Below, piece by piece: positions 45,600 to 51,419 of a DNA stretch of 64,000 nucleotides. Under the pieces are notes generated by a model. The model was not told the DNA's origin and did no database searches. It saw nothing but the letters and a program-made list of their open reading frames with translations. The stretch is from Mycoplasmatota bacterium (GTDB taxonomy: Bacteria; Bacillota_I; Bacilli_A; Haloplasmatales; Haloplasmataceae): contig CP074573.1 of assembly GCA_018394295.1 (NCBI GenBank), forward strand, positions 1,426,001-1,490,000, given 5' to 3'. Position 1 is the stretch's first letter, and every line of letters begins with the position of its first letter. The translations under genes and the position numbers were made by a program.

Positions 45600-46786
45600 T
45601 TATGCCTTAAAATTATAAACTGGTTTTATTATACTTACGATATCAACTGTATCGTGAATATTATTTACTATGTCATCAATATTTTTATATGACATAGGAC
45701 ATTCATCTAATGTAGATTGAGAAACAGATGTTGTATAAATGCCTTTCATTGTTTTTTCAAAATCAGATACATTAAATAGTTCTTTAGCTTTTCCTCGACT
45801 ATACAATCTTCCTGCACCATGTGGTGCTGTACAATTCCAATCGTTATTACCTTTACCGATTGCGATAATAGAACCATCACGCAGATTAATAGGTATAACT
45901 AATTTTTCATCTTTTTGTGCTGACACAGCACCTTTACGTAAAATCATATTATTTAAATCAATATAATTGTGAATAGTATCAAATTTTTCAACAAACTCCC
46001 AGTTCATATGTTCAAGAATTACCTCAGCAATAGTAAGCCTATTATAATGAGCATAAGACTGCGCTATCCCCATATCATGTAAATAGTTCTGCATATCTTC
46101 ACCTTCTAAATATGCTAAATCTTTTTCTTTTTGAGATAATACTTTCTTAACCTTTAACTGTTTTAAAGTATCATTTATTTCTCGTTCTCTGCCTTGAGAT
46201 TTTAACTGTTTTATTATGTTTTCTTTTTCATTTTGATAATCATTTAAATTTTCGACTGCTAGATTTTGATAATATTTAGCTATTTGATTTCCAAAATAAC
46301 GACTACCACTATGTATAAGTAAATAGTTATCACCGAAAGAATCTTGTTCTATAGATATAAAATGATTTCCACCACCAAGTGAGCCAACACTTAACTCAGC
46401 ACGATTTCGATCAAATGGAGCTATCACACTATCAAAAGCAATGTTATTATAGTTTTCATGTCTATTATTACGAACATTAAAACCAGAAGGTACATTTTTG
46501 CGAATGATATCATCAGGTTTTATGAAATCAATGTCCTTATCTTTTAATTTAATACATAAAACACCACACCCAATATCAACGCCTATAAGATTAGGTACTA
46601 TTTTTTTAGAAATTGTCATAGATAATCCAATTACACAACCTGCACCAGCATGAACATCTGGCATAATACGAATTTTACTTTCTTTAAAAATCTCTAAATT
46701 TAATAAATTAATTATTTGCGATATATATTATCTACTATATCAGTAAAAACCTTTGCACTATTATATTTACCATTTAAAATAATCAT
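45600..46786 (-). pseudogene. rtcB: RNA-splicing ligase RtcB, interrupted by an AT-repeat frameshift
   Basis: RtcB joins 2',3'-cyclic phosphate and 5'-OH RNA ends using GTP and manganese. The gene starts at ATG 46786 with AAGGAAGGGTGG, encoding ILNGKYNSAKVFTDIVDN, then the frame is lost in an AT run (46721-46728) and stops. Removing one AT unit joins it to ISQIINLLNLEIFKESKIRI and the rest. The 354-residue remainder has metal-site GVDIGCGVL, GGGNHFISIEQDS, HSGSRYFG and the guanylated His in APHGAGRLYSRGKA. Translation from the internal ATG (46664) would lack the N-terminal ~45 residues. Could be a real lesion, a reversible slip or an assembly error. Confidence 0.75.
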
Positions 46787-47162
46787 AATATCCACCCTTC
46801 CTTTTCAAAAAAATAATTATAAGTTAAGTTCATTTCACATCAAAATTAGGATATTAATTCAGTATTGTATAATGTTTTACTTATCAATTTAATAATATTC
46901 AGAACATTTTTGATTATATCAATAATTCATGAATAATAGCATATTCATTATACTACAAATAATAACACATTTGTAAAAATTTGTAAAAAAATGTAGAATT
47001 GGATCCTAAGATAAATAACTTGGTACTAATTTACAGATTGTTATTTGGATTGAATAAACATCAATCTAGATTTATCACCTAATTCTGTTTCTGTTAAAAT
47101 TATAAAGATTATTAGATGTTATTTAATTTAAGTATTTTGTATTTTTCTTAACAACTAATACA
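46787..47162. other. AT-rich intergenic region
   Basis: No frame with a plausible start, and no repeat or RNA signature that I can support. It separates rtcB from the bracketed accessory block. Confidence 0.5.
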
Positions 47163-47413: not shown

Positions 47414-47461
47414 CTGTCATTATGGAGTTTATGTCAATTTCACTACTGTCATTATGGAGTT
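47414..47461 (+). repeat. Pair of CTGTCATTATGGAGTT direct repeats (IS21-like end motif)
   Basis: Identical 16-mers begin at 47414 and 47446. A variant GGGCTGTCATTAAAGAGCT lies at 51160-51178. The TGTCATTA-NNN-AGTT layout matches the CGTCATTACCAAGTTGATAC copies at 52.8-52.96 kb, so all may derive from multiple end-repeats of IS21-type elements. Confidence 0.5.
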
Positions 47462-47476
47462 ACATTTATAAGCAAT

Positions 47477-47520: not shown

Positions 47521-47823
47521 TTATAAGTCATCAGGATTGGTGTAAGTTCTTTCTCCATTCACTTCAGTAAATTCAATTACAACTTCTTCTACTTCTGTTG
47601 AAGTCGTCAATAATGTCACTCCATTTGTGTTTGACAGAAACATTGTACTAGTAGACATTGTTTCATTACCACCTTCTAATAAACCTGTTGACATATAGAC
47701 AGATGTTGCTAATTGTGTCCCAATTTAATTTTGATCTAACTCTTGATTTTCTGAACTTCCTCCACAAGCTACTGATCCCAATACAAGCACTACTATGATT
47801 ACTAAACTACTAATTTTTTTCAT
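47521..47823 (-). pseudogene. Small lipoprotein gene with an in-frame stop
   Basis: Signal peptide KISSLVIIVVLVLGSVACGG with lipobox SVAC, then NQELDQN and an in-frame TAA at 47725-47727. The same frame continues IGTQLATSVYMSTGLLEGGN to a second stop at 47521 (about 100 codons in total), followed directly by a strong terminator. One nonsense change appears to have truncated it to 32 residues. It lies 17 bases after the anti-sigma gene and would be its co-transcribed partner. Confidence 0.65.
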
Positions 47824-47839
47824 TACATTCATTCTTTCT

Positions 47840-49144
47840 TTAATCTTCTGTTTCTTCTTCGTCGTCCAGTTCATCATCTTCATTATCGTCATCATCAAAG
47901 TTGAAACCTTCTTCATCCATTGAGTTTGTGTAGATTTCTCCTGTGGATGCATCTATTTCTAGTTCGTATTCTTCTCCATTGTATTCAAACTCTACTTCGT
48001 AATATGCAACGCCGTTATCTACTTCTTGTTCAATTTCTAATTCGGTGATTAATGATGTGTCTAATCCTAATTCAGTTGCGATTACATTTAACACTTCTTG
48101 TTCTGTTAATGCGTCTACTGGGAAATCATCATCATCATTATCATTATCTTCGTCTTCATCTAAATCAACGAATACTGTTCCTTCTTTGGCGTCAATTAAG
48201 ATTTCATATTCTTCTGTGTCTGTTTCAATTTCTACTTCATATACCATTACGCCATCTTCTTGCCCTAGTTCGATTTCAAATTCAACCACTGTTAATTCAT
48301 CAATTTCTAATTCAGTTAATGCTGCTTGGTAAGCTTCTTTAACTGTGATAATTCCCAGTTCACTAGCTGACCCTATTTTTTCTACGTTATCTAGTGTGAT
48401 GTTTTTCGCTTCTAATAATAGATTTAGATCATTAATTGATAGTTTAGCCAGTTCTTCAACTGTCATTCTTGGATCTGCTTCAATAATATCTAGGATCAAT
48501 TCTGCTTTTGCTTCTGAGATTCCTAATAATTCTGCTAATTCTTCTGCGTCTTCTTCAAACTCTAAATCTTGTACGATTACTGATCCATCAATTTGGTTTC
48601 CGGTTAATACATCATTTACCACCTGTGATAATTCTGCCATTAATTCATCTTCGCGTACTTCATTATCACTTGAGATTGATAATAATACTGAGTTAGTTAA
48701 CTCACTAATGTATCCATTTGCGACCATTGATCCGATTAATGCATTGATTGCAACATTGTAATCTACTCCGATTATATCCATATCTCCTACGATTATTTCA
48801 GCATCTTTGTTATTTAAAATAACATTGATTACTTTGTCATCTTCATCTAATTCCAATACTAAACTTGGGTTTACATCAATTGCGATTGTAGAAAATGCGT
48901 GTGATGTAGTTGTATTCCCTAGCCCAAACATAATAAATACTAATACTAGCACTAAACTCAAAGATGCAAACGAATATGAGAATCGTTTAGTTGAGATTAC
49001 ATTTTTTACTTTACTTAATAAAGATTCTTGATTTCTAGGATTCTTCATTTTTGGACATTGTTCTAAAATCTTGTCAAAAATTTCGGGTTTTCTTTGATTA
49101 AATTGCTCATATATCACTTTTTCAAGTTTATTATTATCTTTCAT
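47840..49144 (-). CDS. RsgI/PepSY-type transmembrane anti-sigma factor
   Basis: 434 aa. The cytoplasmic N-terminus (about 1-50) is probably the sigma-binding part, followed by one membrane helix (SFASLSLVLVLVFIMFGLGN). The outside portion begins with an RsgI-like beta unit (STIAIDVNPSLVLELDEDDK) and a helical segment, then two PepSY-like units (VKEAYQAALTELEIDELTVV; EQEVLNVIATELGLDTSLIT). Asp-rich acidic runs follow each (DEDEDNDNDDDD and the C-terminus). The ATG overlaps the sigma gene by 11 bp with GGAGGTGAACGA upstream, so the two are translationally coupled. From the membrane on it is about 94% identical to the lipoprotein at 49841-50998. Probably holds the ECF sigma inactive until an envelope signal arrives. 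Confidence 0.8.
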   Translation of the reverse strand: MKDNNKLEKVIYEQFNQRKPEIFDKILEQCPKMKNPRNQESLLSKVKNVISTKRFSYSFASLSLVLVLVFIMFGLGNTTTSHAFSTIAIDVNPSLVLELDEDDKVINVILNNKDAEIIVGDMDIIGVDYNVAINALIGSMVANGYISELTNSVLLSISSDNEVREDELMAELSQVVNDVLTGNQIDGSVIVQDLEFEEDAEELAELLGISEAKAELILDIIEADPRMTVEELAKLSINDLNLLLEAKNITLDNVEKIGSASELGIITVKEAYQAALTELEIDELTVVEFEIELGQEDGVMVYEVEIETDTEEYEILIDAKEGTVFVDLDEDEDNDNDDDDFPVDALTEQEVLNVIATELGLDTSLITELEIEQEVDNGVAYYEVEFEYNGEEYELEIDASTGEIYTNSMDEEGFNFDDDDNEDDELDDEEETED

Positions 49145-49697
49145 ATTCGTTCACCTCCATCTCTCTTCGTAATTTTTCAAGAGATCTTTTATACTTAGAT
49201 AGCACTGTGGATAACGGCATTCCCATTATTCTTGCTATTTCCTTATGCTTTATGTTCGACATAGCGTGCATTACAACAATTTGTCTTTCGTCTTCACTTA
49301 ATATATTTAATAATACATCAACGAGTTGCTCCTTATGTAACTCCTCTTCAATATTGTTTCCTGTTCCAATATCATATAAATCATCTAAATCAATATGTGA
49401 TCTTTTATTTCTATCTCGGATTTTCATTAGTGCATGGTTTCTAGCAATAGTAAATATCCATGCCATAGCTTTTCCTTTTCCTTTATATGTTTTTGCCTTA
49501 TTGTAAACACTGATGTATGTTTTTTGTACAACATCCTCAGCATCGGTTTGATTTGCCAAGATTGACATAGCTAATCCAAAAACTGCTCCACTTGTTTCAT
49601 TGTATAACTGCTCAAACGCCAGTGAATCATACTTAGCTATTTTCTTAATTAATTTATCTTCCACTACTAATAATTTTCTATCATACTTGGACATCAT
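49134..49697 (-). CDS. ECF-type RNA polymerase sigma factor
   Basis: 187 aa. Region 2 spans FEQLYNETSGAVFGLAMSIL, DAEDVVQKTYISVY and KAMAWIFTIARNHALMKIRD; region 4 spans SEDERQIVVMHAMSNIKHKE and GMPLSTVLSKYKRSLEKLRR. Group IV sigma factor directing RNA polymerase to an envelope-stress-type regulon. ATG 49697 has GAGGTG upstream; a frame from 49751 is unlikely. Directly coupled to the anti-sigma gene. Its targets may include the lipoprotein gene upstream. Confidence 0.93.
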   Translation of the reverse strand: MMSKYDRKLLVVEDKLIKKIAKYDSLAFEQLYNETSGAVFGLAMSILANQTDAEDVVQKTYISVYNKAKTYKGKGKAMAWIFTIARNHALMKIRDRNKRSHIDLDDLYDIGTGNNIEEELHKEQLVDVLLNILSEDERQIVVMHAMSNIKHKEIARIMGMPLSTVLSKYKRSLEKLRREMEVNEYER

Positions 49698-49840
49698 AGA
49701 ACACCTCTTTTCACAGCATCTAAGTTCTAGTACAATTATAACACATTTCAAAGGTGTTACTATATCGTTATTTTAATCTAAGAACTGAAGCTGATATCAT
49801 AATGATATCGGCATATTGTTCTGTAGAGGATATCTATAAA

Positions 49841-50998
49841 TTATTCTGTTTCTTCTTCTGTTTCTTCTTCTGTTTCTTCTTCGTCGTCTAGTTCATCATC
49901 TTCATCATCTTCATCATCAAAGTCGAAGCCTTCTTCATCCATTGAGTTTGTGTAAATTTCTCCTGAAGATGCATCTATTTCTATTTCGTATTCTTCTCCA
50001 TTGTATTCAAACTCTACTTCGTAATATGCTACGCCATTATCTACTTCTTGTTCAATTTCTAATTCCGTGATTAATAATATGTCTAATCCTAATTCAGTTG
50101 CGATTACATTTAACACTTCTTGTTCTGTTAATGCGTCTACTGGGAAATCATCATCATCCTCATCATCATCTTCGTCTTCATCTAAATCAACGAATACTGT
50201 TCCTTCTTTGGCGTCAATTAAGATTTCATATTCTTCTGTGTCTGTTTCAATTTCTACTTCATATACCATTACGCCATCTTCTTGCTCTAGTTCGATTTCA
50301 AGTTCAACCACTGTTAATTCATCAATTTCTAATTCAGTTAATGCTGCTTGGTAAGCTTCTTCAACTGTGATAATTCCCAGTTCACTAGCTGACCCTATTT
50401 TTTCTACGTTATCTAGTGCGATGTTTTTCGCTTCTAATAATAGATTTAGATCATTAATTGATAGTTCAGCCAGTTCTTCAACTGTCATTCTTGGATCTGC
50501 TTCAATAATATCTAGGATCAATTCTGCTTTTGCTTCTGAGATTCCTAATAATTCTGCTAGTTCTTCTGCATCTTCTTCAAACTCTAAATCTTGTACGATC
50601 ACTGATCCATCAATTTGGTTTCCGGTTAATACATCATTTACCGCCTGTGATAATTCTGCCATTAATTCATCTTCACGTACTTCATTATCACTTGAGATTG
50701 ATAATAATACTGAGTTAGTTAACTCATTAATGTATCCATTTGCGACCATTGATCCGATTAATGCATTGATTGCAATATTGTAATCTACTCTGATTAAATC
50801 CATATCTCCTACGATAATTTCAGCATCTTTGTTATTTAAAATAACATCGATTACTTTGTCATCTTCATCTAATTCCAACACTACACTTGGATTTACATCA
50901 ATTGCGATTGTTGATGCAGCTATTTTTGTTGCTCCTGTACATGCAGTTAGTGTAATGAATACCACTACTGCTAATCCTATACTAATAATTTTTTTCAT
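49841..50998 (-). CDS. Lipoprotein copy of the anti-sigma sensor domain (RsgI/PepSY)
   Basis: 385 aa. Lipoprotein signal KKIISIGLAVVVFITLTACT (lipobox LTAC) fused to the same RsgI-like, helical and double PepSY-like outside domains as the anti-sigma factor at 47840-49144. By eye there are about 20 differences in about 345 residues. It lacks the cytoplasmic sigma-binding part and transmembrane helix. Its C-terminus ends with an extra repetitive acidic tail (EETEEETEEE). ATG 50998 has AAAGGAT upstream. It lies 144 bp upstream of the sigma gene on the same strand. A surface decoy or co-sensor competing for the anti-sigma ligand is the simplest idea. Confidence 0.82.
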   Translation of the reverse strand: MKKIISIGLAVVVFITLTACTGATKIAASTIAIDVNPSVVLELDEDDKVIDVILNNKDAEIIVGDMDLIRVDYNIAINALIGSMVANGYINELTNSVLLSISSDNEVREDELMAELSQAVNDVLTGNQIDGSVIVQDLEFEEDAEELAELLGISEAKAELILDIIEADPRMTVEELAELSINDLNLLLEAKNIALDNVEKIGSASELGIITVEEAYQAALTELEIDELTVVELEIELEQEDGVMVYEVEIETDTEEYEILIDAKEGTVFVDLDEDEDDDEDDDDFPVDALTEQEVLNVIATELGLDILLITELEIEQEVDNGVAYYEVEFEYNGEEYEIEIDASSGEIYTNSMDEEGFDFDDEDDEDDELDDEEETEEETEEETE

Positions 50999-51121
50999 TT
51001 GTTTCATCCTTTCGTTTTTTGATTTTCACTATACTAATGCACAAGAAACTTAAAATATTGCATAAAACTAAAAAAACATTAATATTTTCTCAAGACGAAT
51101 ACTCATGTATTCATGATGAAC

Positions 51122-51147: not shown

Positions 51148-51419
51148 TTAAGTTCATATGGGCTGTCATTAAAGAGCTATATTGAATAATTGCCTAATGT
51201 TTCAATAACTAATTATATAGTTTGTTTTCCGACTAGCAAAAATTTCATTCAAAAAGTTTTTCATGATGAAATATCTAAAATGGCTAAATTATTTTTTACA
51301 GTTACACAATTCAACTAATAATTTTTTTATTTGAAAATATTTCTCATTTTTGCTTATATTAGGAAAAAATTCAATTTTTGAAAAACCATACTTATTTAAA
51401 AGTTCTTTTATATTTATTA

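Follow-up and report, generated by a model that had tools for sequence, protein, structure and literature searches.

A 64,000-nucleotide stretch of the genome of a Mycoplasmatota bacterium (contig CP074573.1, positions 1,426,001 to 1,490,000; called here the window) encodes an extracytoplasmic function (ECF) sigma factor, its membrane-bound anti-sigma factor, and a lipoprotein that carries nearly the same outside domains as the anti-sigma factor. We think that the sigma factor induces this lipoprotein and that, tethered to the membrane, it serves as a twin of the sensor in negative feedback, with a probability of about 0.55. The anatomy of the locus, the conservation of the three-gene group (triad), the gene conversion between the two copies, and the promoter shared by sigma and lipoprotein genes are directly observed or strongly supported. 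The analysis suggests a self-limiting sensing circuit with a sigma-made sensor twin, which is apparently unreported.

Anatomy of the Triad

All three genes lie on the minus strand and are arranged, from 5' to 3', as lipoprotein, sigma, anti-sigma:

49841..51007, minus strand: lipoprotein twin, 388 amino acids, with lipobox LTAC, RsgI_M, a helical linker, two PepSY domains, and an acidic tail
about 49134..49694, minus strand: ECF sigma factor gene, Sigma70_r2 (1.6e-15) and Sigma70_r4_2 (2.2e-11)
47840..49144, minus strand: anti-sigma factor, 434 amino acids, RsgI_M (1.2e-20) and two PepSY stretches (4.7e-15)

The start of the sigma gene was taken as the ATG of MSKYD, the mechanical open reading frame (ORF) opening at 49751, and the gene overlaps that of the anti-sigma factor by 11 bases. 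The arrangement is that of an ECF pair, with a sigma factor of regions 2 and 4 adjoining a single-pass membrane protein that has an N-terminal cytoplasmic part. In the anti-sigma factor, this part is followed by a single hydrophobic segment, RsgI_M, a helical stretch, and two PepSY domains. RsgI_M scores 74.8 bits in the anti-sigma factor and 75.2 bits in the lipoprotein, the curated Pfam cut-off being 25.3, and a Pfam scan found no RsgI_N in the anti-sigma factor. The sigma partner, having regions 2 and 4, is of the ECF type and not SigI. A search of the window genome with the lipoprotein as query gave no third RsgI_M-type match. The domain matches and the alignment confirm the original prediction, made from the letters alone, of an ECF sigma/anti-sigma pair with a near-identical lipoprotein copy of the sensor domain; the lipobox, followed by the same outside domains, identifies the copy as the lipid-anchored form proposed there.

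Near-Identity of the Two Copies and Probable Gene Conversion

The resemblance is confined to a homogenised tract:

49865..50911, minus strand: homogenised tract, lipoprotein copy, 349 codons
47843..48889, minus strand: homogenised tract, anti-sigma copy, which nests in the lipoprotein clade

Over the 349 aligned codons, the copies differ by 37 bases and 22 residues (96.5% base identity), in good agreement with the "about 20 differences in 345 residues" counted originally, and the differences are spread evenly, with 93-100% identity in every 30-codon stretch. The constant offset of 2022 over about 1.05 kb was also read correctly, as comparison at that offset gives 41-50 identities per 50 bases from about 47850 to 48900 and values near chance beyond. 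Positive selection between the copies, which was hinted at by 91% in local BLAST against 96.5% base identity, is ruled out by a ratio of nonsynonymous to synonymous divergence (dN/dS) of 0.41, with dS of about 0.07.

The triad was found with full-length pairs in six genomes, namely the window genome and those labelled G001, G040, G051, G075, and G337, and its gene order is the same in all six. In the other five triads, the lipoprotein and the anti-sigma copy share 53-69% base identity. The six lipoproteins are mutually more alike than the six anti-sigma ectodomains are, and the ectodomain of the window is the sole one of the six that groups with the lipoproteins in the tree. Forcing the six ectodomains into one clade is rejected by the approximately unbiased (AU) test (p-AU 3.3e-5), and so is forcing the six lipoproteins into one clade (p-AU 4.3e-5). 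The sigma factor of the window and the N-terminal part of its anti-sigma factor group with their own kind, the nearest being those of G040 (73% for the sigma factor and 62% for the N-terminal part). The simplest account would be one gene-conversion tract, by which lipoprotein sequence was written over the anti-sigma ectodomain of the window. Judging from the six genomes, the pair of lipoprotein and anti-sigma factor is old, and its near-identity is special to the window genome. The original prediction had left the choice between a recent duplication and gene conversion; the triad in six genomes together with the tree leads us to reject a recent tandem duplication, and the tree and the AU test speak for conversion. 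The module of the window is closer to that of another family than to one from the same genus, and therefore its transfer between lineages is possible.

Relatives and Survey of RsgI_M Loci

Matches to the lipoprotein query were found in 20 of 60 related genomes, and PF23750 (RsgI_M) in 133 of the 395 genomes of the class. The survey covered 101 loci, the window and 100 others (80 regions from PF23750-positive genomes and 20 from lipoprotein-query matches); because they were taken by match strength, strongest first, with weaker matches left out, the shares given here are not frequencies. RsgI_M open frames are present in 98 of the 101 loci, L043, L050, and L125 having none, and total 126: 62 with a lipobox, 55 of the anti-sigma type (defined by a hydrophobic segment after residue 30), and nine with an N-terminal anchor only. 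The lipoprotein form thus has many relatives, against the refutation envisaged in the original prediction that it might have none.

More than half of the RsgI_M lipoproteins (36 of 62) have a sigma or anti-sigma gene as neighbour, and both gene orders occur. There are 12 clusters of lipoprotein-sigma-anti (LIP-S-ANTI), 12 of sigma-anti-lipoprotein (S-ANTI-LIP), nine of sigma, anti-sigma of another type, and lipoprotein (S-LIP), one lipoprotein-sigma (LIP-S), and two anti-lipoprotein (ANTI-LIP), besides 26 lipoproteins alone. Clusters without a lipoprotein twin are 27 sigma-anti pairs plus the remaining loci that have no lipoprotein. The one ANTI-LIP neighbour tested is a Sigma70_r2 protein. 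In L116 and L123, an anti-sigma/lipoprotein RsgI_M pair lies beside a protein with sigma-70 region 2 that is larger and may be SigI-like, and the same three further genes then follow in both.

Within a locus, the domains of lipoprotein and anti-sigma factor are 58-95% identical if the locus is one of the six of window type and 19-43% identical if it is not. The anchor labels require 12-13 changes on a tree of all 126 domains, and supported forks impose at least 3-4 of these; the lipoprotein form was thus gained or exchanged on more than one occasion. A single ancient lipoprotein clade is unsupported in view of these changes, on a tree that is poorly resolved (few columns and long branches). 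Flanking genes are unlike among the window and L031, L033, and L034, the three triads with neighbours listed. The single case from outside the class, the phylum-level draw having given just genomes of the class, is a clostridial locus (L132, Proteiniclasticum aestuarii) with a sigma factor, an RsgI_M anti-sigma factor, and a second RsgI_M protein that is transmembrane-anchored at its N-terminus and has no lipobox.

Promoters and Motif-Defined Regulon

Two elements precede the lipoprotein and sigma genes of the window, respectively:

51025..51061, minus strand: promoter-like block upstream of the lipoprotein gene, GCAATATTTT-N11-GCATTAGTATAGTGAA
49790..49812, minus strand: inverted repeat between the lipoprotein and sigma genes, read by eye

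A near-identical block, GCAATATTTT followed after about 11 bases by GCATTAGTATA(G/A)TGAA, lies before the lipoprotein gene in all six window-type loci, GCAATATTTT being altered in G001 and partly altered in G040. Its 14-base core has a single exact match in the window genome and seven in the six genomes, at the six lipoprotein genes and at one other lipoprotein of G337; exact matches alone were used, because a one-mismatch scan of the six genomes gave 17 matches versus eight for the reversed pattern. By eye, the upstreams of the sigma genes in these loci are unlike the lipoprotein block, with hairpins in between, and the hairpins that occupy the matching gap in relatives are of unlike sequence.

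For the wider survey, a two-block promoter model was trained on 20 sigma-gene upstreams only, that of L046 being dropped as too short, and was set against a background of 827 other upstreams (99th percentile, 8.77). When lipoprotein starts are re-chosen by rule (the ATG closest to a point 20 codons ahead of the lipobox Cys), this percentile is reached by 38 of 62 lipoprotein genes, against 1% of the background; mechanical starts give 27 of 62. The model recognises all nine S-LIP lipoprotein genes, 8/12 of S-ANTI-LIP, 4/6 of the other LIP-S-ANTI, the one of LIP-S, and 16/26 of the stand-alone type, and neither of the two ANTI-LIP genes nor any of the six window-type genes; none of the 55 anti-sigma gene upstreams passes. 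Outside the window-type group, a separate copy of the sigma-gene promoter stands before the lipoprotein gene. This autoregulatory-type promoter is strong at the S-LIP and S-ANTI-LIP sigma genes, on whose upstreams the model was trained.

The shared promoter (38/62) and the dedicated window-type block make the lipoprotein very probably a direct target of the adjacent sigma factor, and in many relatives the sigma switch appears to turn on the lipoprotein copy. Whether sigma drives the lipoprotein promoter had been proposed as a check, and the comparison answers in favour, through the promoter shared in most relatives and the block kept in six of six window-type loci.

A strict form of the pattern gave 13 matches and none for the control in the 12 S-ANTI-LIP-type genomes, all in six of them: six at sigma genes, six at lipoprotein twins, and one at another lipoprotein. 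In the nine S-LIP-type genomes, there were 23 matches versus one for the reversed control. They comprise six sigma genes, eight RsgI_M twins (seven lipoproteins and one without lipobox), three secreted subtilase-like proteins, two DUF2202-like lipoproteins, one transglycosylase-associated protein, one weak trypsin-like match below the Pfam cut-off, and two sites without a clear gene; the targets other than sigma and twin fall into four kinds, identified by Pfam on one member per kind and for the rest by resemblance. Defined in this way, the regulon has the appearance of an envelope response of few genes, in which sigma factor and twin are the constant members.

Asn-Pro Site and Fold

Both copies retain a dipeptide at which RsgI proteins cut themselves:

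50888..50893, minus strand: Asn39-Pro40 of the lipoprotein, at the position of the RsgI/SEAL self-cleavage site
48866..48871, minus strand: Asn92-Pro93 of the anti-sigma factor, the equivalent of lipoprotein Asn39-Pro40

Neither this site in the two copies, nor the lipoprotein's own promoter-like block, nor a broken third lipoprotein gene described below had been mentioned in the original prediction. Asn-Pro is present in 128 of 128 domains (126 of 126 when the first domain of each protein is counted), with some bias, since the proteins were found by a profile containing the site; loss was possible and none was seen. The invariant columns over the 126 domains are three, the Asn and Pro of the site and one further Asn. 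In L048 (G006:C7, 5086-7758, minus strand), an 890-residue lipoprotein has three tandem RsgI_M domains, each with Asn-Pro.

The structural model of the lipoprotein has a mean predicted local distance difference test score (pLDDT) of 86.6, above 90 over RsgI_M, and places Asn-Pro in the turn that joins strand 32-37 to strand 41-46. Its best matches in the PDB are RsgI domains, with Bacillus subtilis RsgI (8t9n) at the top (E 9.9e-7), and MucB is a weak fold match (E 0.05). In the solved RsgI chains 8hep_B, 8heq_B, and 8hdj_B, the first residue aligns to Pro40 of the lipoprotein, as expected if these chains are cleaved. PMC12203970 describes autocleavage of the RsgI periplasmic domain, followed by RseP and then ClpXP steps. 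M50 proteases are encoded in the window genome, one of them at E 3.2e-65. By analogy with RsgI, we infer that the lipoprotein would cleave itself at Asn-Pro.

Relation to Known Systems

RsgI anti-sigma factors with a SEAL domain (B. subtilis, Clostridium thermocellum) share with the window system RsgI_M, Asn-Pro, a transmembrane anti-sigma factor, an M50 protease in the genome, and the fold of the lipoprotein (8t9n, 8hep, 8heq, 8hdj, 8her, 8u9o). Their partner, however, is SigI instead of an ECF sigma factor, and the window type has in addition a second, lipid-anchored RsgI_M protein without sigma-binding domain, which is the conserved member. Accessory proteins of the envelope also act back on sensors elsewhere: CpxP on CpxA, RseB/MucB on RseA/MucA, and CseA in Streptomyces. 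These are likewise regulon-encoded outside proteins thought to tune the sensor of their own response, but they are not known to be copies of its outside domain. The LTXXQ/CpxP, RseB, and CseA families gave no Pfam match in the lipoproteins scanned (those of the window, L051, L055, L065, L091, L121, and L040), nor did LTXXQ/CpxP in those of L073 and L057. Classical autoregulated ECF/anti-sigma operons have overlapping genes, as here, and the autoregulatory-type promoter of the S-LIP and S-ANTI-LIP groups; the difference is that the motif-defined regulon is very small, with the lipoprotein twin of the sensor as its constant member. The literature searched gave no report of a lipoprotein that duplicates an anti-sigma ectodomain, which is weak evidence of absence, as subscription papers were mostly beyond reach.

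Proposed Mechanism and Alternatives

In the circuit that we favour, the anti-sigma factor would tether the ECF sigma factor to the membrane. As in the RsgI proteins studied, its RsgI-type (SEAL) ectodomain would probably cut itself at Asn-Pro, the pieces staying together until a signal or pull parts them; an M50 site-2 protease would then cut the stub and free the sigma factor. The freed sigma factor, as the promoters suggest, would transcribe the lipoprotein gene, adding more of the sensor's outside domain to the same membrane face without the sigma-binding part. Most likely, the lipoprotein would take up the ligand or load of the sensor, and the response would be shut down. We infer both the action of the lipoprotein on the anti-sigma factor and the negative sign of the feedback. 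In the window, sensor and twin are an almost exact match, because the ectodomain of the one was overwritten by that of the other. A copy acting on its sensor as a decoy or in feedback had been suggested originally, and it is the idea that fits best.

Several observations weigh against this circuit. In the nine S-LIP loci, the anti-sigma ectodomain belongs to another family ("domain Y") and RsgI_M is found only in the lipoprotein; these loci are left unexplained by a pure same-domain decoy, and a same-domain rule for all loci fails in them. Lipoproteins lie away from any sigma gene in 26 of 62 cases. The autoregulation motif is found at none of the 12 LIP-S-ANTI sigma genes, window included, and the window-type lipoprotein promoter differs from that motif (0/6 by the model), so in the group of the window the link to sigma is given by conservation and rarity of the block. 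Lipoprotein domains, moreover, are more conserved between loci than anti-sigma domains in 10 of 10 window-type pairs, 56 of 66 S-ANTI-LIP pairs, and 12 of 15 other LIP-S-ANTI pairs, a pattern that suits a functional component better than it suits a sensor copy. This bias is what would be expected if the lipoprotein were an effector that binds or shields a damaged envelope component, the anti-sigma factor borrowing its domain to gauge the target and any feedback being indirect, via repair. Such a role would account for the S-LIP loci with their differing ectodomain, for the promoter retained by 16 of the 26 stand-alone lipoproteins, and for the S-LIP-type motif before subtilase-like, weak trypsin-like, DUF2202-like, and transglycosylase-associated proteins. 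On the other hand, the lipoproteins scanned have no enzymatic or known binding domain besides RsgI_M and PepSY, and an effector by itself leaves the retained self-cleavage site and the lipoprotein-to-sensor conversion unexplained. We consider the effector a serious minority candidate, which keeps real weight from lipoprotein conservation and the S-LIP loci, and we favour the feedback twin.

The invariance of Asn-Pro in every lipoprotein also agrees with an exchange of strands, in which self-cleavage of both proteins would leave a short strand on the anchor with the ectodomain still held to it, and lipoprotein ectodomains would re-cap the bare anti-sigma stub or remove its ectodomain, setting the threshold for the site-2 protease. 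The window pair is near-identical over the first strand and the turn, with the modelled site lying between the two strands, and gene conversion would keep the strands exchangeable. We nevertheless regard this as unlikely, since the 19-43% identity per locus outside the window-type group is poor for exchange. Shedding of the ectodomain after self-cleavage, as a messenger to neighbour cells or a report of damage, is less likely still: a cut near the lipid anchor would indeed leave a short peptide on the lipid, but RsgI pieces are reported to stay together once cleaved, and no receptor candidate was seen. Least probable of all is a functionless accident, whether from a tandem duplication of recent date or from faulty assembly. 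The high identity of the window copies would fit it, against which stand the triad in six genomes, the separate conserved promoter, the dN/dS between the copies, and the different N-termini of the two genes.

Domain Y and the Surroundings of the Triad

Two proteins matched by the profile of domain Y, a lipoprotein at E 1.3e-27 and one of anti-sigma-like type at 5e-23, flank the sigma gene of L099 (G310:C52, 214-3852), a locus of four genes encoding an RsgI_M lipoprotein, a domain-Y lipoprotein, an ECF sigma factor, and a domain-Y anti-sigma factor. There, a lipoprotein twin matches the anti-sigma ectodomain within a second domain family. The profile also finds the second target lipoprotein of G337 (1.1e-12), relatives of which occur in all six window-type genomes; at domain-Y lipoproteins of these genomes, the window-type promoter (three mismatches at most) was found for that of G337 only. 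Domain Y is present in both anti-sigma factors and lipoproteins, one of the latter with a window-type promoter. The window genome has an intact lipoprotein of this type (382 amino acids; G000:C1, about 2269900-2271065; L229, L233) without that promoter. The domain-Y model has a pLDDT of 69 and no confident PDB match.

A further gene of the window may belong to this family:

47521..47832, minus strand: broken short lipoprotein gene 3' of the anti-sigma gene, with an in-frame stop at 47725-47727 and a shortened 3' end

By eye, it is like the start of the domain-Y lipoprotein L227 of the relative G075; its membership by hidden Markov model is not significant (E 5.7). Related 21-base repeats (three copies, 81% alike) flank the triad at 47414-47466 and 51163-51183. 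Farther away, an RtcB-family gene (PF01139, 6e-56; 45600-46795, minus strand) is without its N-terminal part in frame and appears interrupted, because the short frame 46712-46795 resembles the absent start.

Significance

A more general design may be considered, though we hold it only tentatively and find it somewhat doubtful as a whole. In these bacteria, ECF sigma factors would repeatedly have gained a lipid-anchored, self-cleaving sensor twin as their main target, sometimes nearly the only one, and the twin would cap or unload the sensor by exchange of self-cleaved strands or by sharing of load. Such a rule may cover two unrelated ectodomains, RsgI/SEAL and the beta-rich domain Y.

If the feedback twin is real, it would be a new architecture of sigma signalling, in which the response makes a second version of its own sensor domain and tethers it to the membrane. 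The reset of SEAL-type sensors would become testable, since the twin retains the self-cleaving domain but lacks the part that binds sigma. The window pair would be particularly useful for this purpose, since conversion has made sensor and twin near-identical and domain swaps would test the anchor alone. Moreover, promoters and target genes would be predicted for many stand-alone "RsgI-like" lipoproteins of poorly studied bacteria.

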